Position numbers and translations under genes: made by a program
Source: Flavobacterium piscis
GTDB lineage: Bacteria; Bacteroidota; Bacteroidia; Flavobacteriales; Flavobacteriaceae
Direction of reading: 5' to 3'
DNA: 64,000 bases
Assembly (NCBI RefSeq): GCF_001686925.1
Contig: NZ_LVEN01000012.1
Location: forward strand, 310,001-374,000
Notes under the pieces: model-generated
The model's database searches: none
What the model saw: the letters and a program-made list of their open reading frames with translations, nothing else
What the model was told of the DNA's origin: nothing
Shown: one piece after another, positions 17,240 through 31,919 of the stretch
Layout of the letters: each line of letters begins with the position of its first letter
Numbering within the stretch: the first letter of the stretch is position 1

Positions 17240-20200
17240 ATGAAAAAATTTGTACAAGGACTGGTCGCTTTCTCGCTAAAAAACTCCCTCATCGTTTTTT
17301 TCCTGACAGCAGTATTACTAGTCGCCGGAATAGTCAGCTATATCCATACCCCCATCGAAGCTTTCCCTGATGTAACCAATACAAGGGCAAGAATCATTAC
17401 GCAATGGCCCGGACGAAGTGCCGAAGAAGTAGAGAAATTCATCACACTTCCGATTTCAAGACAAATGAACACGATTCCTAAAAAAGCCGAAGTACGTTCT
17501 ATTTCGCTTTTCGGATTATCGGTTGTAACGGTTTTGTTTGATGATGATGTTGAGGATTTTTACGCACAGCAATATGCCTCAAATCGCCTTAACGGATTAG
17601 ATCTTCCGGAAGGTGCCGATGTTGATATTGAACCGCCATCCGGAGCAACGGGTGAAATATTCAGGTATATCATCAAAAGTGATTTACCTATTAAAGAAAT
17701 CAAAGCCATTCAGGATTGGGTAATCGAAAGAGAACTCATTGCTGTTCCCGGAGTTGCCGATGTGGTGAGTTTTGGTGGGGAAGAAAAAATCTTCGAAATC
17801 AAAATCAATCCAACCGAATTAGAAAACTACAACTTATCTGCACTTGATGTTTACGAAGCCGTTTCTAAAAGTAACGTAAATGTGGGTGGAGACGTAATTC
17901 AGCGTGGTGATCAGGCTTATGTAGTTCGCGGAGTTGGTCTGATTGATAAAGTCGAAGATATTGGGAATATCTTAATCGAAACCAAAGGATCATCGCCCAT
18001 ATTAGTAAAACACGTCGCCGAAGTTTCAATTTCAGCCAAACCAAGATTAGGTCAGGTAGGTTTAGATGGCGATGATGATGTGGTAGAAGGAATCGTGATT
18101 ATGCTGCGTGGAGAAAATCCGGGTGAAGTCATCAAGAGATTGAAAGATCGTTTGGCGGAACTGAACGAAAGAGTGCTGCCGGATAATGTAAAAATAGTTC
18201 CGTTTATCGATCGTACCAAATTGGTCGACACGACGGTACATACCGTTACCAAGAATCTTATCGAAGGAATTTTATTGGTATCGCTAATCGTGTTTATTTT
18301 CCTCTACAACTGGAGAACCTCATTGATTGTGGCGTCTGTTATTCCGCTTTCGTTTTTGTTTGCTATTATCATGTTGAGAATACAGGGATTACCTGCGAAT
18401 TTGATTTCTATGGGAGCGCTTGATTTCGGATTACTGCTCGAAGGAACTTTGGTTATTGTCGAACAGGTTTTTGTGTCGCTCGAAAAGAAAGCGCATAAAG
18501 TAGGAATGGAACGCTTTAACAATATGAGTAAAATGGGACTTATTAAGAAAAGCGTGGGCAGCGTAGCCACGTATATTTTCTTTGCCCTCATCATTTTAAT
18601 TGTGGCACTGCTCCCTATTTTCTCTTTCACGAAAGTGGAAGGAAAAATGTTCTCTCCCCTAGCCTTCACGCTAAGTTATGCGTTATTAGGATCGTTGATT
18701 TTATCCCTTACTTATGTTCCGGCAATGTGTAAAGTCATGCTAACGAAAAACATTGTAGAGAAAGAAAATATGATCTCGCGTTTCTTTAGGGAAAATCTTT
18801 TTAAACTTTTTAAATGGAGTACCAAACATCGCAAAGCAACCTTATATGCATTCTTAGGTTTACTAGCAATATGTTGTGCTAAGTTCGCTTTTTATGGTTC
18901 AGAATTTATTCCGAAATTGAATGAAGGAGCAATTTATGTAAGAGCCACTTTGCCTAACAGTATCAATCTGGACGAAGCAGTACGACTTACCAAAGAAATG
19001 AAGGCCAAGATAAGGAAGTTCGAAGAAGTAAAATTTGTCCTCACACAAACCGGGCGACCAAATGACGGAACAGATCCAACTGGATTTTTTAATATCGAAT
19101 TGCATATCGAACTAAAACATCAGGACGAATGGAAACGCGATATAAGCAAAGAACAATTAATCGCCGAGATCAAAAAAGAACTCGATGTGTATCCCGGAAT
19201 TGGTTTTGGATTTAGCCAGCCCATTCAGGATAATGTCGAAGAATATGTTGCCGGAGTAAAAAGTCCGTTGGTGATTAAGATATTCGGAAATGACCTTTTT
19301 CAACTCGAAGCCATGGCTGCAAAAGTCGCCAAATCAATCAAAGATGTAAAAGGAATCGAAGATATTAATGTCTATAAGAATATTGGTTTACCCGAATTAA
19401 GGATTCAGCTTCACGACGAAAAAATGGCGCGTTATGCCATAACAACCGCTGATGCGCAAGCCGTGATCCGAATGACCATTGGAGGTCAGGCCGCAACGAA
19501 GTTTTATGATGACGAAAAAATATTTGATATCACTTTACGTTTCGAAAAAGAATATCGTGACTCAAAAGAAAAAATCGAAGACATTCTTATTCCAACTATG
19601 AATGGCAAAAAAGTCCCGCTGAAAGAAATCGCGACCGTAGAATATAAAACAGGTCCAACATTTATCTATCGAGAAGGAAACAGCCGATATATTGCCGTAG
19701 GTTTTAGTATCGAAGGACGAGACTTGGGAAGTACCATTGATGAAGCTCAGAAAAAAGTTGCCGCAGAAGTAAAACTACCTAAAGAAAATGTAATGAAATG
19801 GGCAGGAGAATTCGAAAGCAAAGAAAGAGCTTCGCGACAATTGGCTATGATCGTTCCTGTTGTATTGATCTTGATTTTATGTTTGCTGTATTTCAACTTT
19901 GGCAATTTCAAAGATACTCTGGTCGCTGTAAGCGCAATGCCTTACGCCTTTATTGGTGGTTTCTTATCGCTTTGGGCTACAGGAACCGTGTTCGGGATAT
20001 CGGCCGGAATCGGTTTTATTATTCTCTTTGGAGTAAGTGCCATCGACAGTATTGTCCTCATCGGAATCATCAAAGAAAACATGAGGGCTGGAATGCATTT
20101 AAAAGATGCCATCTCAAACGGAATTTACGCCAGAATTCGTCCTATTGTGATGATTGCCCTAATGGGATCGCTAGGATTATTACCTGCAGCATTGTCTACC

Positions 20201-20344
20201 GGAATGGGTTCCGAAGTTCAGAAACCATTGGCTATCATGATTGTGGGCGGATTAATAACCTGTATGATTTTATCCTTAACGGTTTTACCACAAGTATTTT
20301 ATCTGGTCTATCGTAAAAAAGATCTGAGCAACACCGAGTCATAA
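17240..20344 (+). CDS. CzcA/CusA-type heavy-metal RND pump (HME family)
   Basis: A 1034-residue, 12-TM transporter. TM4 reads DFGLLLEGTLVIVEQ: Asp395, Glu401 and Glu408 correspond by spacing to the three acidic residues required in CzcA (Asp402, Asp408, Glu415), with one Asp-to-Glu change. The periplasmic part contains the HME-type sequence GRPNDGTDPTGFFNIEL. TM10 has GVSAIDSIVLIGI, without the HAE1 Lys. Metal specificity (Cu/Ag or Zn/Co/Cd) cannot be read safely. It is the last gene of the operon, followed by a terminator at 20374. Confidence 0.93.
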   Translation: MKKFVQGLVAFSLKNSLIVFFLTAVLLVAGIVSYIHTPIEAFPDVTNTRARIITQWPGRSAEEVEKFITLPISRQMNTIPKKAEVRSISLFGLSVVTVLFDDDVEDFYAQQYASNRLNGLDLPEGADVDIEPPSGATGEIFRYIIKSDLPIKEIKAIQDWVIERELIAVPGVADVVSFGGEEKIFEIKINPTELENYNLSALDVYEAVSKSNVNVGGDVIQRGDQAYVVRGVGLIDKVEDIGNILIETKGSSPILVKHVAEVSISAKPRLGQVGLDGDDDVVEGIVIMLRGENPGEVIKRLKDRLAELNERVLPDNVKIVPFIDRTKLVDTTVHTVTKNLIEGILLVSLIVFIFLYNWRTSLIVASVIPLSFLFAIIMLRIQGLPANLISMGALDFGLLLEGTLVIVEQVFVSLEKKAHKVGMERFNNMSKMGLIKKSVGSVATYIFFALIILIVALLPIFSFTKVEGKMFSPLAFTLSYALLGSLILSLTYVPAMCKVMLTKNIVEKENMISRFFRENLFKLFKWSTKHRKATLYAFLGLLAICCAKFAFYGSEFIPKLNEGAIYVRATLPNSINLDEAVRLTKEMKAKIRKFEEVKFVLTQTGRPNDGTDPTGFFNIELHIELKHQDEWKRDISKEQLIAEIKKELDVYPGIGFGFSQPIQDNVEEYVAGVKSPLVIKIFGNDLFQLEAMAAKVAKSIKDVKGIEDINVYKNIGLPELRIQLHDEKMARYAITTADAQAVIRMTIGGQAATKFYDDEKIFDITLRFEKEYRDSKEKIEDILIPTMNGKKVPLKEIATVEYKTGPTFIYREGNSRYIAVGFSIEGRDLGSTIDEAQKKVAAEVKLPKENVMKWAGEFESKERASRQLAMIVPVVLILILCLLYFNFGNFKDTLVAVSAMPYAFIGGFLSLWATGTVFGISAGIGFIILFGVSAIDSIVLIGIIKENMRAGMHLKDAISNGIYARIRPIVMIALMGSLGLLPAALSTGMGSEVQKPLAIMIVGGLITCMILSLTVLPQVFYLVYRKKDLSNTES

Positions 20345-23989: not shown

Positions 23990-24125
23990 AACCGGATTAA
24001 AATCCGGCCCTACAATATCAATCATTCCTCCGGAATTTTAAAATCTATGTGATATAATCATTAAAATGATTTAAAAAAGAGCCGTGGGTTCGACCTATAT
24101 TGTAGGGCCGGATTTTAATCCGGTT
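23990..24125. repeat. 136-bp element bounded by 29-bp perfect inverted repeats
   Basis: Left arm 23990-24018 begins AACCGGATTAAAATCCGGCC and ends CTACAATAT. The right arm at 24097-24125 is its exact reverse complement. Each arm is itself palindromic (CCGGAT-TAAA-ATCCGG), so the element can form nested hairpins. The 78-bp centre has no ORF. It looks like a paired REP (BIME-like) unit or a tiny non-autonomous mobile element; no flanking target duplication is obvious. Confidence 0.8.
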
Positions 24126-24258: not shown

Positions 24259-24486
24259 ATGCAAGCAATTAACATCACAGCATATACCGAAGATGCTTCT
24301 CAAATAGAAGCTGTAAAAGCTTTTATGAAAGCACTAAAGATAAAATTCGAAATAGCAAATGTAAAGTCGTATGAATTATCTACTGAACAGCAAGAAATTT
24401 TAGATAGTCAGATTAATTTAGACAAAAGTTTATACACAGATGCTGAATCAATATATACCGATTTAAAAAAGAAGTATGAACTATAA
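24259..24486 (+). CDS. Small antitoxin of a ParE/RelE-type pair
   Basis: A 75-residue acidic protein, MQAINITAYTEDASQIEAVK and so on, ending KKYEL. Small proteins like this with an N-terminal strand and a helical C-terminus sit directly before RelE/ParE toxins in many Bacteroidetes. The gene overlaps the toxin gene by 11 bases, the coupling usual for antitoxin-first modules. I assign the role mainly from context; no classical RHH or HTH motif is obvious. Confidence 0.7.
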   Translation: MQAINITAYTEDASQIEAVKAFMKALKIKFEIANVKSYELSTEQQEILDSQINLDKSLYTDAESIYTDLKKKYEL

Positions 24487-24775
24487 GGTTATCGTTTCTC
24501 CAATTGCATTAAAAAATATTGAAGAAGCAGTTGAATATTACATTTTAAAAGCAACTAAAAAAGTAGCTTTAGACTTTCTTAATGATTATAAAAGTACATA
24601 TAAAGCTTTAAAGGTAAATCCATTCTATCAATTTCATGATAATAATTATCGCTTTTTACCTTTTAAAAAATTTCCGTATATCGCTTTTTTCATTGTTGAC
24701 GAATTATCAAAAACTGTTTTTCTAAATGCAATTTTTCACACTTCTCAACATCCTGAAAAATATCCCACAAAATAA
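24476..24775 (+). CDS. RelE/ParE-family toxin
   Basis: A 99-residue basic protein. MNYKVIVSPIALKNIEEAVE then YYILKATKKVALDFLNDYKS and NNYRFLPFKKFPYIAFFIVD match the ParE/RelE fold: N-terminal strand, helical hairpin, then the beta-sheet with R..PF..FPY. Toxins of this fold cut ribosome-bound mRNA or inhibit gyrase; which one cannot be told. The start overlaps the antitoxin gene. A structured repeat follows 19 bases after the stop. Confidence 0.82.
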   Translation: MNYKVIVSPIALKNIEEAVEYYILKATKKVALDFLNDYKSTYKALKVNPFYQFHDNNYRFLPFKKFPYIAFFIVDELSKTVFLNAIFHTSQHPEKYPTK

Positions 24776-24793: not shown

Positions 24794-24904
24794 CTAGCCC
24801 TGATCGAAACGGCATCCTTTTATGGTGGGGTTCACCATAAAAGATATAGTGTAGAGCAGGACAAATGGTCTTGAAAACACAAAAATCACCTGCTCCTTAA
24901 AAAA
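24794..24904 (+). repeat. Structured dispersed element, copy D (long 3' form)
   Basis: TAGCCCTGATCGAAACGGC then ATCCTTTT, hairpin ATGGTG-GGGTT-CACCAT, AAAAGATATAGTG, then GAGCAGGACAAATGGTCTTG and finally CTGCTCCTTAAAAAA. The extended 3' end (GGACAAATGGTCT) is shared with copy C at 21184. The GGGTT loop is shared with copy A at 7699. Confidence 0.78.
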
Positions 24905-25018
24905 GTCATTATCGAAAAATCCCTTATAATTGAAGGCTTTCAGCGATATTTAATACTTGTCTATACAACAATAAGAAAATATTATGACAAATTTATTTCA
25001 TAATCAGAAAAACCGCCA

Positions 25019-25026
25019 TACATTTG
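25019..25026 (+). promoter_or_regulatory. Candidate -7 element of the TetR gene
   Basis: TACATTTG matches TAnnTTTG. The first operator copy starts on its last base, so repressor binding there would cover the transcription start. No clear -33 TTG is present. Confidence 0.5.
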
Positions 25027-25051
25027 CCTAACGGTGTTAAACAATTTAATA
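25026..25051. promoter_or_regulatory. Candidate TetR operator, copy 0 (autoregulatory)
   Basis: The 26-bp sequence begins GCCTAACGGTGTTAAACAAT and ends TTAATA. It contains the dyad TAAC-GGT-GTTA typical of TetR-type operators and shares the AATTTAATA tail with four further copies downstream of tetR. It lies between the -7 element and the tetR start codon. Confidence 0.65.
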
Positions 25052-25061
25052 CTTAATTAAA

Positions 25062-25655
25062 ATGGCAAGTAAAGATCGAATTTTAAGACAAAAAGAAGAG
25101 ACAAGAAGTAACATTCTTGAGGCTGCTTATGCTATCGTCAAAGAAGAAGGATGGCAAGGTCTGAGTATGCGAAAAATTGCTGACAAGATTGAATATACGG
25201 CTCCAATTATTTATGAGTATTTCTCGAATAAAGAAGCTATCCTTAACGAATTAACCGGGAAAGGGTTTATTAAGTTAACGAAAGAACTTCAGGAAGCCAA
25301 GGATAAATTTGAAAAACCGGAAGAACAACTAGAAGCCATGTGGATGGCTTATTGGGACTTCGCTTTTACAGATACTGAAATGTATCAGGTGATGTTTGGA
25401 GTACAAATGAATTGTTGTCAGCAACAATGTTCGGCTCAGGAAAGACCCTATAAATTATTCACTTCGGTAATTGCTGAAATTATGAAAAACAGCAACCCTA
25501 CCGATGAAGTAATCAAACAAAAATATTTTACTTTCTTCTCTGTTATTCACGGTTTAATCGCGATTAATATTATCAATAAAAGCGAAGTTATGGAAACTAT
25601 AAACAATCAAATCCTAAAGGATGCGATCGGTGGAATTATAAAATCAATTCAATAA
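25062..25655 (+). CDS. TetR/AcrR-family transcriptional repressor
   Basis: A 197-residue regulator. The N-terminal HTH reads EETRSNILEAAYAIVKEEGW then QGLSMRKIADKIEYTAPIIY and EYFSNKEAIL. The C-terminal ligand-binding domain contains an unusual Cys cluster, NCCQQQC (near residues 125-131), that could sense redox state or metal; that is speculation. It is codirectional with the RND genes starting 318 bp downstream. A candidate operator lies in its own promoter and four copies lie before the pump genes, so it very probably represses both. Confidence 0.92.
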   Translation: MASKDRILRQKEETRSNILEAAYAIVKEEGWQGLSMRKIADKIEYTAPIIYEYFSNKEAILNELTGKGFIKLTKELQEAKDKFEKPEEQLEAMWMAYWDFAFTDTEMYQVMFGVQMNCCQQQCSAQERPYKLFTSVIAEIMKNSNPTDEVIKQKYFTFFSVIHGLIAINIINKSEVMETINNQILKDAIGGIIKSIQ

Positions 25656-25671
25656 AAAAAATTTCATTTTA

Positions 25672-25889
25672 ACTTAACAGTGATAAATGATTTAATAGGT
25701 AATTTAGCAACTATTTTTTTACTACTTTACTTAACAGTGTTAGAAAATTTAATTAGCGTAATATAGAGGCTTTTTTTCAATTTTACTTAACAGTGATAAA
25801 TAATTTAATACCGATTACAAAGTAGAATCGGAAAGTACTTTATTTGAATTTTTGCACTTATTTACTTAACGATGTTAGATAATTTAATA
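25672..25889. promoter_or_regulatory. Array of four candidate TetR operators before the RND operon
   Basis: Copies of a 26-bp unit start at 25672, 25729, 25785 and 25864. Each begins ACTTAAC, followed by AGTG or GATG, then WTARA, and ends ATTTAATA/ATTTAATT. Two of them show TTAAC-N3-GTTA dyads. The first three are spaced 56-57 bp, and the DNA between ends in a T-rich stretch each time, so a ~56-bp tandem unit has been amplified. A weak promoter-like AATTTTTG (25847-25854) stands just before the last copy, as TACATTTG does before copy 0. Confidence 0.7.
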
Positions 25890-25973
25890 TAATTAAATAT
25901 GAATCCCGGGAATGCCACAGTACCAACAATTTTACAAAAACAGAATGTCCAACAAATTAAAACCAATACGAAA

Positions 25974-27122
25974 ATGAAAAATGTAATTATAACCAGTTTT
26001 ATTCTGGCGCTAGTGCTAAGCAGTTGTGCAGATAAATCGCAAGCTCCTGCAGCTCCTGCTCCACCATTATTACCCGTTTTAGCCATTACAAGCGAAAACA
26101 CTACTACAGATGCTGAATATCCTGCTTCGATACAAGGAACGGTTGACGTTGAAATTCGCCCACAAGTAAGCGGAAACCTTGAAAGAGTTTATGTAGACGA
26201 AGGTGCTTATGTAACTAAAGGCCAGACTTTATTTAAAATAAACGAACGTCCGTTCCGTGAGCAACTAAACAATGCTTTGGCAAGTCTTCATGCTTACGAA
26301 GCTGCTTTAATCAACGCTCAGTTAGAAGTTGATAAACTGACTCCTTTAGTACAAAACAAAGTGGTTTCTGATTATCAGTTAAAAACGGCTAAAGCTTCTC
26401 AAAAAATTGCTGCTGCAAACATCGAACAAGCCAGAGCAATGGTAGGATCTGCCAAAATTAATTTGGGATATACCAATGTTACAGCCCCAGTAAGTGGTTA
26501 CATTGGAAGATTACCTAAAAAACAAGGAAGTTTAGTTTCGGCATCAGATGTTGAGCCTTTAACAAACTTATCTGATGTTCACGAAGTTTTTGCTTATTTC
26601 TCTTTAGGTGAAACTGATTTCATCAACTTTAAAGCGCAATACGCAGGAAACAGTTTAGGTGATAAACTAAAAAAATTACCTCCTGTTACTTTGGTTTTAG
26701 CAGATAACAACGCTTATCCTCAAACCGGAAAAATTGATATGGTAGACGGTCAGTTTGATAAAACTACCGGAGCGATTACCCTAAGAGCGACTTTCCCAAA
26801 TGCTGGCGGAACTTTACGTTCAGGAAATACAGGAAAAATTCGTTTAGGTCTTCAACACGATGATGCTGTTTTGGTTCCGCAATCGGCTACTGTAGAAATG
26901 CAGGATAAAGTTTTTGTTTTTACAGTAAACAAAGAAAACAAAGTAACCAAAATGCCTATCACGGTTTCTGGTAAAAGCGGATCAAATTACTTAATTAAAG
27001 ATGGTGTAAAATCCGGTGACCAAATTGTTTTAAGCGGTATCGATAAATTACAGGACGGACAAGTGATTCAGCCTGAGAAATCATCGCCTGCAAAAGTTGC
27101 CCAAATAATTAATAAAAAATAA
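25974..27122 (+). CDS. AcrA-type RND periplasmic adaptor lipoprotein
   Basis: A 382-residue adaptor. The frame is open from 25899, but the ATG at 25974 gives a clean lipoprotein signal (MKNVIITSFILALVLSSC, Cys18), so it is preferred. The lipoyl halves appear in VDVEIRPQVSGNLERVYVDE and VTAPVSGYIGRLPKKQGSLV, with a helical hairpin between, then the beta-barrel (FAYFSLGETDF) and the membrane-proximal domain (VPQSATVEMQDKVFVF). The pump follows 11 bases after the stop. The operon is probably under TetR control. Confidence 0.93.
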   Translation: MKNVIITSFILALVLSSCADKSQAPAAPAPPLLPVLAITSENTTTDAEYPASIQGTVDVEIRPQVSGNLERVYVDEGAYVTKGQTLFKINERPFREQLNNALASLHAYEAALINAQLEVDKLTPLVQNKVVSDYQLKTAKASQKIAAANIEQARAMVGSAKINLGYTNVTAPVSGYIGRLPKKQGSLVSASDVEPLTNLSDVHEVFAYFSLGETDFINFKAQYAGNSLGDKLKKLPPVTLVLADNNAYPQTGKIDMVDGQFDKTTGAITLRATFPNAGGTLRSGNTGKIRLGLQHDDAVLVPQSATVEMQDKVFVFTVNKENKVTKMPITVSGKSGSNYLIKDGVKSGDQIVLSGIDKLQDGQVIQPEKSSPAKVAQIINKK

Positions 27123-27133
27123 TTTTTACGAAA

Positions 27134-30100
27134 ATGTTCAAAATATTTATACAAAGACCTGTACTGGCAACCGTTATTTCCATTTTATTGGTCATACTAG
27201 GTATACTTGGTCTTACGAAGTTGCCCTTACAACAGTTTCCTGATATTGCGCCACCATCGGTTTTGGTAACGGCGGTTTATCCGGGAGCGAATGCAGAAAC
27301 GGTTTTACGTTCTGTAGCACCATCTCTGGAAGAATCTATAAATGGTGTTGAGAACATGACGTACATGAGTTCTACAGCCAGTAACGACGGATCTCTTGCT
27401 ATTACGGTTTTCTTTAAATTAGGAACAAATGCAGATCAGGCTGCTGTAAACGTGCAAAACAGAGTTGCTCAGGCAACGAGTCAATTACCTGCAGAGGTTG
27501 TTCAGCAAGGTGTAACTACTGCCAAACAACAAAACAGTTTTATCATGGCCATTGGTATGTTTACCGAAGATGAGTCAAAATACGATCAGACTTTTGTTGC
27601 CAATTATGCACAGATTAATATTATTCCGGAGATCAAACGTATTCCGGGAGTTGGTTCTGCCAGTATTTTTGGAGGTGTAAAAGATTACTCGATGCGTGTT
27701 TGGTTAAACCCAACACAAATGTCAACTTACAAAGTGACACCAAACGAAATCATGAGCGCAATTCAGGATAAAAGTTTGGAAGCTGCTCCGGGTAAATTTG
27801 GAGAAAGAAGTAAAGAAGTTTTTGAATATGTAATTAAGTACAAAGGAAAATTAACCAAACCCGAAGAGTATGAAAATATTGCTATACGTTCTAATGCAGA
27901 TGGTTCAATACTTCGTCTTAAAGATGTAGCCAGAGTTGAACTTGGTGCTTATTCTTATAACAGTTTAACCCGTTTAAATGGTAAAAAAGGAGTTGTAATT
28001 GGTATTATCCAATTGGCAGGTTCTAACTCGAATGATATTCAGGTTGCGATCAACAAATTGATGGTGAAAGCCTCAAAAGATTTCCCAACAGGAATCAAAC
28101 ATAACATTTTCTATAGTACAAAAGTTGCCTTAGACCAGTCTATTGAGCAAGTTCAACATACTCTACTTGAAGCATTTATACTGGTATTCATCGTAGTATT
28201 TATATTCCTTCAGGATTTTAGATCAACATTAATCCCGGCTATTGCTGTACCTGTAGCAATTTTAGGAACGTTCTTCTTCATGCAGTTATTCGGATTCTCG
28301 ATCAATCTTCTAACACTTTTCGCTTTAATTCTGGCGATTGGTATTGTGGTAGATGATGCGATTGTCGTCGTCGAAGCCGTGCATGCTAAAATGGAGCACA
28401 AACATTTGTCTCCAAAAGTAGCAACTCATGAAGCAATGCACGAAATAACGGGTGCTATTATCTCGATTACGCTGGTAATGGCTGCTGTATTCCTGCCGGT
28501 TGGTTTTATGGAAGGCTCAACAGGAGTTTTCTATCGTCAGTTTGCCTTTACGATGGCAATTGCAATTGTAATCTCGGCGGTAAACGCTTTAACTTTAAGT
28601 CCTGCACTTGCTGCATTATTCTTAAAAGACAATCATGCGGCTCATGGAGATGGTCCTTATGAAAAACAAGGATTTAAACAAAAATTCTTTAACGGATTTA
28701 ACAAAAGTTTTGATTCACTAACCAACCGTTATGTTGGAGGTTTAAAATTCTTAATCCGTAGAAAATGGTTAAGTTTAGGAGGTTTGGCTTTAATTACTGT
28801 AGCAACTATAGTAATGGTAAAAACAACTCCTGCAGGATTTATCCCGACAGAAGATCAAGGATTTATTGCGATTGCAGTAAACACACCTTCAGGAACATCT
28901 CTTGACGGAACTCAAAAAGTAATGACCGAAGCAGAAAATATTCTGAGCAAACTGGATGCCTCAAGAGACGTTACCGCTATTTCAGGTTTCAACTTATTGA
29001 CGAATTCTACAAGTCCGTCTTCAGCAGTTGTTTTCGTATTACTTAAACCTAATGAAGATCGTGGAGATGTCAAAAATATTGATGAAATTATGAATCAGGT
29101 TCGAGGTAAACTTGGCGCTATTTCAGGCGGAAGTTTCTTCGTGTTCAGTTTCCCAACTGTTCCCGGATTTAGTAATGTTGAAGCTTTAGATTTGGTACTT
29201 CAGGATAAAACCGGAGGAAAACTGGATAAGTTTAGCGGAATTTCTCAAAACTTCATCGGAGAATTGATGAAACGTCCGGAAATTGCCGTAGCCTTTACCT
29301 CTTTTAAAGCCGATTATCCTCAATTGCAATTGGATATCAACGACGAGAAAGCCAACCAATTGGGTGTGAATGTAAAAGACATTTTACAAACCATGCAAAC
29401 CTATTTTGGTAGCGCACAAGCTTCTGACTTTAACAGATTTGGTAAATATTACCGAGTTGTAGTTCAGGCTGATATTGCTGACAGAGCTGATCCGTCATCA
29501 ATTGACCGAGTTTTCGTGAAAAACAAAACTGGCGAAATGGTGCCCATAAATACTTTAGTAAAACTAACTCGTATTTATGGTTCAGAAACGGCTTCGAGAT
29601 ACAACTTGTTTAATTCGATTTCGATAAATGCAATCCCAAAACCAGGATTTAGTTCCGGAGATGCCATTAAAGCAATTCAGGAAGTTGCAGCACAACAATT
29701 ACCTGCGGGTTATGGTTTTGAATTTTCAGGACAAACTCGTGAAGAGATTTCGTCAGGAGGTCAGTCGGCAACAATTTTCTTACTGTGTTTGATATTCATC
29801 TATTTCTTACTTGCTGCACAGTACGAAAGTTACATCTTGCCATTGGCCGTAATCTTATCTATCCCTGCAGGTATATTTGGAGTATTCGTAGCTATTGGAT
29901 TAACAGGAATTGAAAACAACATTTACGTACAAGTTGCACTGGTAATGCTTATTGGTCTGCTCGCCAAAAATGCGATTTTGATTATCGAATTCGCCGTCCA
30001 GAAACGAAAATCAGGTCAGGCATTGGTAAAAGCAGCAATCGATGCAGCCAAACTACGTTTGCGTCCAATTATCATGACGTCACTAGCCTTTATTGTTGGA

Positions 30101-30295
30101 TTAATCCCGATGATGAGCGCCACAGGACCGTCAGCACAAGGTAACCACTCTATTAGTATTGGTGCCGCCGGAGGTATGATTTCAGGAGTAATATTAGGGT
30201 TGTTTATCATCCCGGTTTTATTCATCATCTTCCAATATTTACAAGAAAAGGTTTCTGGAAAACCAGTAGCCGTAATTCATAACGAAGAAAAATAA
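27134..30295 (+). CDS. AcrB-type RND multidrug efflux pump (HAE1 family)
   Basis: A 1053-residue, 12-TM drug/proton antiporter. The relay residues of AcrB are all present: Asp407 and Asp408 in GIVVDDAIVVVEAVH and Lys945 in GLLAKNAILIIEFAV (AcrB Lys940). The N-terminus MFKIFIQRPVLATVISILLV, the FQDFRSTLIPAIAVPVAILG segment and the C-terminal LRPIIMTSLAFIVGLIPM are typical. Of the three pumps in this window it is the closest to classical multidrug exporters. A 37-codon membrane ORF follows after 2 bases. Confidence 0.95.
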   Translation: MFKIFIQRPVLATVISILLVILGILGLTKLPLQQFPDIAPPSVLVTAVYPGANAETVLRSVAPSLEESINGVENMTYMSSTASNDGSLAITVFFKLGTNADQAAVNVQNRVAQATSQLPAEVVQQGVTTAKQQNSFIMAIGMFTEDESKYDQTFVANYAQINIIPEIKRIPGVGSASIFGGVKDYSMRVWLNPTQMSTYKVTPNEIMSAIQDKSLEAAPGKFGERSKEVFEYVIKYKGKLTKPEEYENIAIRSNADGSILRLKDVARVELGAYSYNSLTRLNGKKGVVIGIIQLAGSNSNDIQVAINKLMVKASKDFPTGIKHNIFYSTKVALDQSIEQVQHTLLEAFILVFIVVFIFLQDFRSTLIPAIAVPVAILGTFFFMQLFGFSINLLTLFALILAIGIVVDDAIVVVEAVHAKMEHKHLSPKVATHEAMHEITGAIISITLVMAAVFLPVGFMEGSTGVFYRQFAFTMAIAIVISAVNALTLSPALAALFLKDNHAAHGDGPYEKQGFKQKFFNGFNKSFDSLTNRYVGGLKFLIRRKWLSLGGLALITVATIVMVKTTPAGFIPTEDQGFIAIAVNTPSGTSLDGTQKVMTEAENILSKLDASRDVTAISGFNLLTNSTSPSSAVVFVLLKPNEDRGDVKNIDEIMNQVRGKLGAISGGSFFVFSFPTVPGFSNVEALDLVLQDKTGGKLDKFSGISQNFIGELMKRPEIAVAFTSFKADYPQLQLDINDEKANQLGVNVKDILQTMQTYFGSAQASDFNRFGKYYRVVVQADIADRADPSSIDRVFVKNKTGEMVPINTLVKLTRIYGSETASRYNLFNSISINAIPKPGFSSGDAIKAIQEVAAQQLPAGYGFEFSGQTREEISSGGQSATIFLLCLIFIYFLLAAQYESYILPLAVILSIPAGIFGVFVAIGLTGIENNIYVQVALVMLIGLLAKNAILIIEFAVQKRKSGQALVKAAIDAAKLRLRPIIMTSLAFIVGLIPMMSATGPSAQGNHSISIGAAGGMISGVILGLFIIPVLFIIFQYLQEKVSGKPVAVIHNEEK

Positions 30296-30297
30296 AA

Positions 30298-30411
30298 ATG
30301 GAAAACTATATAACGACAATCCTCGTAGCCATCATCATTGGCATTGGATACATATCCTATAAAATCTCAAGAGATCTTGATAGTAGAAAAGATACTTGTA
30401 CAGAAATTTAA
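30298..30411 (+). CDS. Small single-pass membrane protein between RND pump and outer-membrane factor
   Basis: A 37-codon ORF starts 2 bases after the pump stop. Its N-terminal half is a hydrophobic helix (MENYITTILVAIIIGIGYIS), followed by a charged tail (YKISRDLDSRKDTCTEI). Its TAA overlaps the ATG at 30411. The tight packing on both sides suggests it is translated. AcrZ in E. coli is a comparably small pump-associated helix, but no homology is claimed. Its start also resembles the signal peptide of the next gene (MKNYITKIVMIAILI), so a local duplication is an alternative origin. Confidence 0.55.
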   Translation: MENYITTILVAIIIGIGYISYKISRDLDSRKDTCTEI

Positions 30412-30425
30412 TGACAACATATAAA

Positions 30426-31844
30426 ATGAAAAATTATATAACCAAAATCGTGATGATCGCCATTTTGATCACGACTATAATATCCTGTAAAGTTTCGAAG
30501 GATATTGAAACTCCAAAAGATGCATTTCCTGAAAATTTCAGGAATGCATCGGTTTCAAAAGATACTACAAGTATTGCTGACGTGGAGTGGAAAAATTTCT
30601 TTACAGAAAAAGATATTATTGAACTTATAGATAGCGCTGTAGCCAGAAACAATGATCTACAGATTGCTACTAAAAATATCGAAATTGCACAATACAGATT
30701 CACACAATCGAAATGGGGAAATGTTCCTCAGGTTAATTTGAATGTAAGTGCAAGTACAAGCAATCCATCTGATAATAGTTTTACAGGAAAGAATTTAGGT
30801 CAGGCTTTAGGCCAAAACCATATTGATGATTATTCTGCCGGAGCAACACTTTCCTGGGAAGCTGATATTTGGGGTAAAATCCGTAATCAGAAAAAAGGGG
30901 CGTTTGCAGGTTATCTTCAGTCAGAAGAAGTAAAAAAAGCATTGCAAACGACTATTGTAGCCAATGTTTCTAAAGGATATTACAATCTTTTGATGTTAGA
31001 TGCGCAGTTAGAAATCGCCAAACAGAATTATAAATTGAATGATAGTACAACCAATATCATTAAATTAAAATACGATGCCGGACAGGTTACTACATTAGCG
31101 ATTCAACAATCTGAAGCACAAAAATTGGTTTCGGCGCAATTGATTCCGCAATTAGAACAAAACATTGCCATTCAGGAAAATGCGTTAAGCGTTCTAACAG
31201 GATCATTCCCGAATTCTAAAACCAGAACTACTCGTTTAAGCGTTCTTGAAGTCAAAAACAATAATGCAATCGGAATTCCGTCTTCATTAGTAAGCCGCAG
31301 ACCGGATGTAAAAAGTGCCGAATTAGCACTTAAAGTTGCCAATGCAAACGTAGGAATCACAAAAGCCGACTTGTATCCTTCACTTAAAATTACTGCTCAG
31401 GGTGGCGTAAATTCATTCGAAACCAGCAATTGGTTCAACATTCCGGCTTCATTGTTCGGAACCGTTGCCGGAGGATTAACACAACCTTTGTTAAACAATA
31501 AAAAAGTAAGAACGCAATATAATATTGCCGTTGCCGAAAGAGAAAAAGCAGTTTTAAGCTTTAGACAATCGGTTCTTGTAGCGGTTAGCGAAGTATCTGA
31601 TGCTTTGGTAAAAGTAGAGAAATTGCAACAGCAAGAATCTTTCCTAAAAGAAAGAGTAAAAACATTACAACAAGCCATTAAAAATGCCAATTTGTTATTC
31701 AAAAATGGTATGGCTGAATATCTTGAGGTGCTTTCAGCGCAATCAAATTTACTACAAAGTGAGTTAGAATTAGCTGATATTAAAAGACAACAGCTTTCTG
31801 CCAACACCGAGTTATATCGTGCATTAGGCGGCGGCTGGAGATAA
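30426..31844 (+). CDS. RND outer-membrane lipoprotein channel (NodT/OprM-type)
   Basis: A TolC-superfamily factor of about 472 residues. The frame is open further upstream with an ATG at 30411 that overlaps the preceding stop; the ATG at 30426 gives the tidier lipoprotein signal (MKNYITKIVMIAILITTIIS then Cys21) and is chosen. The conserved WKNFFTEKDIIELIDSAVAR, SWEADIWGKIRNQKKGAFAG and LVSRRPDVKSAELALKVANA motifs are diagnostic of the NodT family. It is the last gene of the tetR-controlled operon; a terminator follows. Confidence 0.92.
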   Translation: MKNYITKIVMIAILITTIISCKVSKDIETPKDAFPENFRNASVSKDTTSIADVEWKNFFTEKDIIELIDSAVARNNDLQIATKNIEIAQYRFTQSKWGNVPQVNLNVSASTSNPSDNSFTGKNLGQALGQNHIDDYSAGATLSWEADIWGKIRNQKKGAFAGYLQSEEVKKALQTTIVANVSKGYYNLLMLDAQLEIAKQNYKLNDSTTNIIKLKYDAGQVTTLAIQQSEAQKLVSAQLIPQLEQNIAIQENALSVLTGSFPNSKTRTTRLSVLEVKNNNAIGIPSSLVSRRPDVKSAELALKVANANVGITKADLYPSLKITAQGGVNSFETSNWFNIPASLFGTVAGGLTQPLLNNKKVRTQYNIAVAEREKAVLSFRQSVLVAVSEVSDALVKVEKLQQQESFLKERVKTLQQAIKNANLLFKNGMAEYLEVLSAQSNLLQSELELADIKRQQLSANTELYRALGGGWR

Positions 31845-31880: not shown

Positions 31881-31919
31881 AAAACGCTGTGAGACTTTTA
31901 GTTTCATGGCGTTTTTTTA
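31881..31919 (+). terminator. Terminator of the third RND operon
   Basis: AAAACGC (31881-31887) pairs with GCGTTTT (31909-31915), extended inward by GTGAGAC against GTTTCAT with G-T pairs, then a T run. Confidence 0.8.

Follow-up and report, generated by a model that had tools for sequence, protein, structure and literature searches.

Among the TetR-type repressors of RND efflux pumps, AcrR, MtrR, TtgR, SmeT and CmeR act through one or two operators, which often lie between divergent genes. The locus of Flavobacterium piscis described here is like these systems in that a presumably autoregulating TetR gene stands beside an RND operon, with predicted palindromic operators over promoters. Unlike them, it holds five copies of the predicted operator, tetR and the pump genes run in the same direction, four of the copies lie in the gap between them and runs of T precede the middle ones.

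Other known repressors act on elongation. In the available parts of the reports, a repressor bound downstream of the start site stops the elongating polymerase, as described for LacI in E. coli and for CodY and GbsR in Bacillus subtilis (PMC4132739, PMC10310618, PMC7396694); GbsR, of the MarR type, is a natural roadblock repressor of B. subtilis, with its site just past the start site (PMC7396694). When LacI halts the polymerase of E. coli, the end of the RNA is reported to lie 3–4 nt before the 22-bp operator, that is, 14–15 bp before its centre (PMC4499122); in E. coli the roadblocked polymerase is described as removed mainly by Mfd (PMC4132739), and Rho as able to release it in vitro (PMC1950744). 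As far as the available parts of these sources go, the LacI, CodY and GbsR roadblocks differ from the present locus in that no row of operators, each preceded by its own T-run, separates the repressor gene from its target. Probably the nearest design known to us is the Pol I terminator (Reb1, Nsi1, TTF1), where, in the accessible part of the report, the polymerase stops in a T-rich stretch of the coding strand about 15 bp upstream of the roadblock site, and T-rich sequence plus roadblock do not suffice for release without an upstream RNA hairpin (PMC12366685). Among the titles and abstract openings listed in a search of the literature, mainly in open journals, none dealt with this tetR–pump locus or with bacterial termination by a T-run plus an operator.

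Organisation of the Locus

In the window, i.e., the whole stretch of 64,000 nucleotides that was analysed, tetR and, downstream of it, the genes for an RND adaptor, an AcrB-type permease and an outer-membrane channel share one strand (Table 1). The gap between tetR and the pump genes, of about 320 bp, holds four copies of the motif, named I1–I4, and the fifth copy, UP, lies on the tetR promoter. The tetR product matched TetR_N (PF00440, 46.9 bits, cut-off 24) and TetR_C_33 (31.2 bits, cut-off 26.8), and it did not reach the equivalog models of the named RND-pump repressors AcrR (27.2 bits, cut-off 271) and MtrR (26.8 bits, cut-off 280). Among solved chains, its closest sequence matches are regulators of the TetR family (best E 2e-11), and the nearest named TetR, among the best 80 of 307 named loci, is that of F. 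pectinovorum strain 42, which is 98% identical. For the adaptor, the lipoprotein-type start was chosen over an upstream ATG at 25899, which is unlikely because the length of the gap differs out of frame among relatives.

Table 1. Features of the tetR–pump locus, with positions in the window.
Feature	Position	Strand	Remarks
tetR −7 box TACATTTG	25019..25026	+	TAnnTTTG type; abuts UP; 6/6 consensus letters in 74/74 four-copy relatives, at one offset
UP, predicted operator on tetR promoter	25027..25051	+	In 85/86 relatives whose TetR is at least 79% identical; absent from L066
tetR	25062..25655	+	197 aa; TetR_N and TetR_C_33 domains (profile search)
I1, predicted first gap operator	25673..25697	+	17 bp past tetR stop; preceded by A-run, not T-run
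T7 run, 9 bp before I2	25714..25720	+	At least six T before I2 in 69/74 relatives, 9 or 10 bp away
I2, predicted second gap operator	25730..25754	+	Repeat and motif search
T7 run, 8 bp before I3	25771..25777	+	At least six T before I3 in 68/74 relatives, 7–9 bp away
I3, predicted third gap operator	25786..25810	+	Repeat and motif search
Candidate RND operon −7 box AATTTTTG	25847..25854	+	5/6 letters; inferred
I4, predicted promoter-proximal gap operator	25865..25889	+	Without T-run in 70/74 relatives
RND adaptor	25974..27122	+	Lipoprotein-type start
AcrB-type RND permease	27134..30295	+	
Outer-membrane channel	30396..31844	+	Start uncertain
Intrinsic terminator candidate after pump operon	31881..31918	+	Test position 31911; −11.7 kcal/mol

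The region upstream of tetR shows further features of its own. A ParE-like toxin gene lies just upstream (24476–24775; PF05016, 23.2 bits, cut-off 23), and the short ORF before it may be its partner. At about 23990–24125, the palindromic element CCGGATTAAAATCCGGCCCTACAAT and its reverse complement form two inverted copies separated by about 80 bp, which may be a small repeat element. Further upstream, a second RND permease gene (17240–20344) has the look of heavy-metal efflux by its sequence.

The Five Copies and Their Predicted Repressor

A repeat search of the window found five 25-bp copies of one motif, all on the same strand and in register, with start-to-start spacings of 646, 57, 56 and 79 bp. 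The original prediction, made from the letters of this DNA, had placed one copy on the tetR promoter and four before the RND operon; all of them were recovered with no mismatch and their positions were confirmed, except that each had been started one base earlier, as a unit of 26 bp. The TAAC-N3-GTTA dyad and the ATTTAATA tail that it described are real, as seen in the symmetry of a matrix of 424 copies from relatives, with a peak at the eighth base (score 0.70) and a second one nine bases further (0.67).

In the organism's own genome (5.9 Mb, 51 contigs) a search with up to three mismatches gave eight matches, namely the five copies with none, one match with two and two with three, and the backward control pattern gave five. 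The match with two mismatches was rejected as a further member of the regulon, since it sits inside a coding sequence. Among 398 Flavobacterium genomes, 101 hold the TetR at E up to 1e-30. Counted per genome from two tables, among the matches listed, the motif with at most one mismatch occurs in 99/101 genomes with the TetR and in 14/297 without it, the latter with a single match each; the backward control gave 28 matches in 26 of the 398 genomes. Two TetR holders (G264 and G395) had no motif match in this survey. Equal frequency of the repeats away from tetR-type genes had been named beforehand as an observation that would refute the prediction; counted per genome, it was not seen.

From this co-occurrence we infer, with near certainty, that the TetR encoded at 25062 has these repeats as its operators, one at the promoter of its own gene and four before the RND operon. 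That another protein binds the copies is extremely unlikely: the identity of the operators is deduced, which leaves this reading some room, but against it stand the co-occurrence itself, the copy on the TetR's own promoter in 85 of 86 relatives, a related TAAC-N3-GTTA dyad that still lies upstream of all four more distant TetRs with no pump adaptor gene downstream (of 14 distant loci, these four were left out of the gap counts) and the finding of no site at any of four TetRs of 26–28% identity.

The conserved tail may tentatively belong to a second dyad, weaker than the first and 18 bp further on, of which it would be the left half. Dyads 18 bp apart occur in four loci (L006, L108, L109 and L156), and these pairs suggest such a role for the tail in a second TetR dyad. 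For a match to GTTAA, the offset +27 was the top one in I2 (3.3 of 5) and I4 (3.9) and tied for the top in I1 (2.6); it was not the top one in I3 (2.0) or UP (1.0), which argues against the second dyad. Two other explanations of the tail were set aside: a promoter box, because in UP the tail lies downstream of the −7 box, and the sharing of a half-site with the first dyad, at the centre nine bases on, because two dimers could hardly share one half-site.

Conservation and Age of the Array

Copies were counted in the 86 of 111 loci whose TetR identity is at least 79%, with a matrix threshold of 9 bits (the lowest counted copies scored 11.7 and 13.8). Four gap copies are present in 74 of these loci, three in 8, five in 2, two in 1 and six in 1, and I1 starts 14–20 bp past the tetR stop in 86/86. 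The spacing is standard in 66 loci, with medians of 59, 56 and 80 bp. Copies at the same position in different species are more alike (0.897) than copies at different positions within one species (0.818). In the best 80 of 307 named loci, which overlap the 398-genome survey and are not independent of it, one upstream and four gap copies were found in 68, three gap copies in nine, five in two, and two gap copies with no upstream copy in one.

A second family of the same order, f5, in which the TetR is 40–46% identical, was sampled as 17 loci among 63 order-level TetR holders. All 17 have the copy on tetR, with three gap copies in 14 loci and two in 3, placed 71–140 bp apart. In a third family, f17, 6/6 loci have the copy on tetR and one to three gap copies. 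The array is thus an old architecture conserved by position and not a recent amplification, and the amplified array of the original prediction is not supported: four gap copies are the rule across the 86 loci, likeness follows position, and f5 has two or three gap copies at another spacing. Local duplication is limited to a few loci, such as L042, where three adjoining copies are identical.

Two duplicated loci were also observed. In genome G119 the second tetR–pump locus (L095) has a tetR match with an internal stop and keeps UP and four gap copies; the first locus has an intact TetR, which may act at the two of them. The second copy in Flavobacterium sp. JAS (L066/L199) has an open tetR, no recognisable UP and two weaker gap copies, and represents an array in decay or rewiring.

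The spacing bears on the earlier suggestion of cooperative or looped repression, in which TetR dimers on I1–I4, and perhaps on UP 646–838 bp away, would silence both promoters. Such an arrangement appears rather unlikely to us. It would fit five sites for one repressor within 0.9 kb and a tight I3–I4 interval around the candidate promoter (78–81 bp in the 66 standard loci), but intervals 1 and 2 vary continuously, filling the ranges 54–62 and 53–59 bp with no helical-repeat pattern, some relatives have intervals of 83–128 bp, and the T-runs at fixed distance are left unexplained; the suggestion thus found no specific support. The steep or graded response that would follow from looping, with no part for the T-runs in termination, is unlikely to the same degree.

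T-Runs before the Middle Copies

The counts of T-runs and promoter boxes refer to the 74 four-copy loci, and the gap statistics to 85 loci, as one contig stops before the adaptor gene. In the window, the gap contains exactly two runs of at least six T, before I2 and I3. The T-rich ends that had been ascribed to the first three array copies are in fact separate T7 runs, and only the second and third copies have one upstream. Among the relatives, a coding-strand run of at least six T ends 7–10 bp upstream of I2 in 69/74 loci and of I3 in 68/74, of I4 in 4/74 and of UP in 0/74. A-runs before I2 or I3 were not found (0/148); I1 has an A-run in 60/74 and a T-run in 15/74. Over the 85 gaps, 163 of 179 T-runs end 4–18 bp before an operator, whereas 200 random placements gave 33.6 on average and never more than 48.

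The distance is also kept where the spacing changes: an interval above 84 bp occurs in 10 loci, and 8 of them retain a run of at least six T 9–10 bp before the middle copies, the exceptions being L090, with a T-run before one copy only, and L025, with none. In f5 a T-run lies 9–10 bp before TTAAC at 43/48 gap operators, and in f17 at 2/11 gap operators only. In 21 more distant Flavobacterium-type loci it was found at 34/55 gap operators, 8–12 bp away; this list includes L095 (86.6% identical), also counted in the main set, and some copies were missed in it because the pattern used to find its sites is more stringent than the matrix. The geometry common to f5 and to I2 and I3 of Flavobacterium is a new observation, absent from the original prediction.

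The T-run might act through the shape of the DNA, as an A-tract that bends it or narrows its groove, so that TetR would bind more tightly next door. The constant separation of run and operator centre, about 1.6 helix turns, and the A-run of I1 agree with this; however, before I2 and I3 the coding strand always has T and never A, and UP and I4 manage without such a run, and we regard such an effect as very improbable. The related view that the extra copies merely add affinity or buffer the repressor is, in our judgement, just as improbable.

Promoter Boxes

In the available part of the source, the TAnnTTTG box is placed at −12 to −5 (PMC9723704); with the tetR box at this place, the start site would fall inside UP. 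Before I4 the best offset of the box, in 56/74 relatives, is −18, and the maximum of 5/6 letters is reached in 47/74; in the window, where the box reads AATTTTTG, no TTG was found at the −33 distance. Conserved −7/−33 boxes do not precede every copy: UP has the −7 box, I4 has it in part, I2 weakly, and I1 and I3 do not.

These counts weigh on the view that the gap is a series of tandem promoters, each T-run being a degenerate −7 box and each unit a weak promoter with the operator over its start. In fact, the T-runs of I2 and I3 occupy the position of the candidate −7 box of I4, and I2 has 5 or 6 of the 6 letters in 39/74 loci. On the other hand, I3 has them in 8/74 only, TTTG is found within 22 bp of I2 in 12/74 and of I3 in 8/74, against 74/74 for UP and 50/74 for I4, and a G directly follows the T-run in only 9/69 (I2) and 5/68 (I3) cases. 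Tandem promoters are therefore a quite improbable explanation.

Terminators and RNA Structure

No intrinsic-terminator candidate was found on the plus strand at 24900–26000, and no hairpin with a T-rich tail in the tetR–pump gap of the window; such a candidate occurs in 2/85 loci. The same test was positive after the upstream gene (20398) and after the pump operon (Table 1). A stable hairpin directly before the T-runs, as in an intrinsic terminator, was not found either: the preceding 35 nt are unstructured (1/166 at or below −6 kcal/mol, mean z 0.01), in contrast with 5/19 window genes with a T-run past their end, which reach −11 or lower.

A short inverted repeat, CCGATT...AATCGG, lies after I3 (25811–25835) and recurs in many relatives. 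As a hairpin of the third interval (CCRATT...AATYGG) it was rejected: RNAalifold gave no common structure for the 85 gaps (81 distinct sequences), and the stems were just somewhat longer than in mononucleotide shuffles.

A Possible Control at Two Levels

T-runs at a fixed distance, in a gap with no terminator, point to a block of elongation, which the original prediction had not considered, and suggest that RNA polymerase coming out of tetR may also be stopped by the bound repressor. We propose, giving it close to an even chance, a model with two levels. TetR on UP and I4 would cover the start region and block initiation, and the copies that follow a T-run, which are I2 and I3 in Flavobacterium and almost every gap copy in f5, would be roadblocks to polymerase leaving tetR, a role proposed because no intrinsic terminator lies between tetR and the pump genes. 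I1–I3 lie 17–155 bp past the co-directional tetR, in a gap free of terminator candidates. The T-run ends about 17 bp short of the operator centre, and a polymerase halted by the repressor would therefore hold a weak rU:dA hybrid, which would favour release. With a stop 3–4 nt before the operator, as for LacI, the T-run would sit inside the hybrid; a similar stop distance is reportedly given in a 1986 paper on termination by the lac repressor. A ligand that frees TetR would then both open the pump promoter and let tetR transcripts run into the operon. What the analysis shows are the positions of the copies, their conservation, their occurrence together with the TetR and the lack of terminator candidates; binding, the roadblock, release and the response to a ligand are the proposed part.

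Several observations go against the two-level model. I1 mostly has an A-run (60/74), T-runs accompany 2/11 gap operators in f17 and 34/55 in the distant loci, L025 has none, I2 also carries 5–6 of 6 −7 letters in 39/74 loci, and the hairpin that release requires at the Pol I terminator (PMC12366685) was not found here. It is worth noting that several of the readings could hold together.

A further reading, which we put forward tentatively and with some doubt, is that T-run plus operator form a modular, repressor-gated terminator, used in series and comparable, in bacteria, to the roadblock terminator of Pol I. One ligand-sensing repressor would then control initiation at the pump promoter as well as read-through out of its own gene, which we hold to be possible but not probable. 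The array would work like the Pol I terminator without being a member of that class, since the proteins and the polymerase are unrelated and the block here would be ligand-controlled. Moreover, in the available part of the Pol I report release needs a hairpin, and none was found here, which counts against a simple transfer.

If true, this would be a ligand-controlled, hairpin-free termination by a repressor, with a transferable part made of a T-run, about 9 bp and an operator. Whether a roadblock plus a weak RNA–DNA hybrid terminates transcription in bacteria could be tested naturally at this locus, with a large comparative set in which the number of gap copies goes from 2 to 6. The locus also provides a well-defined predicted operator for a pump repressor that many species of Flavobacterium have conserved.
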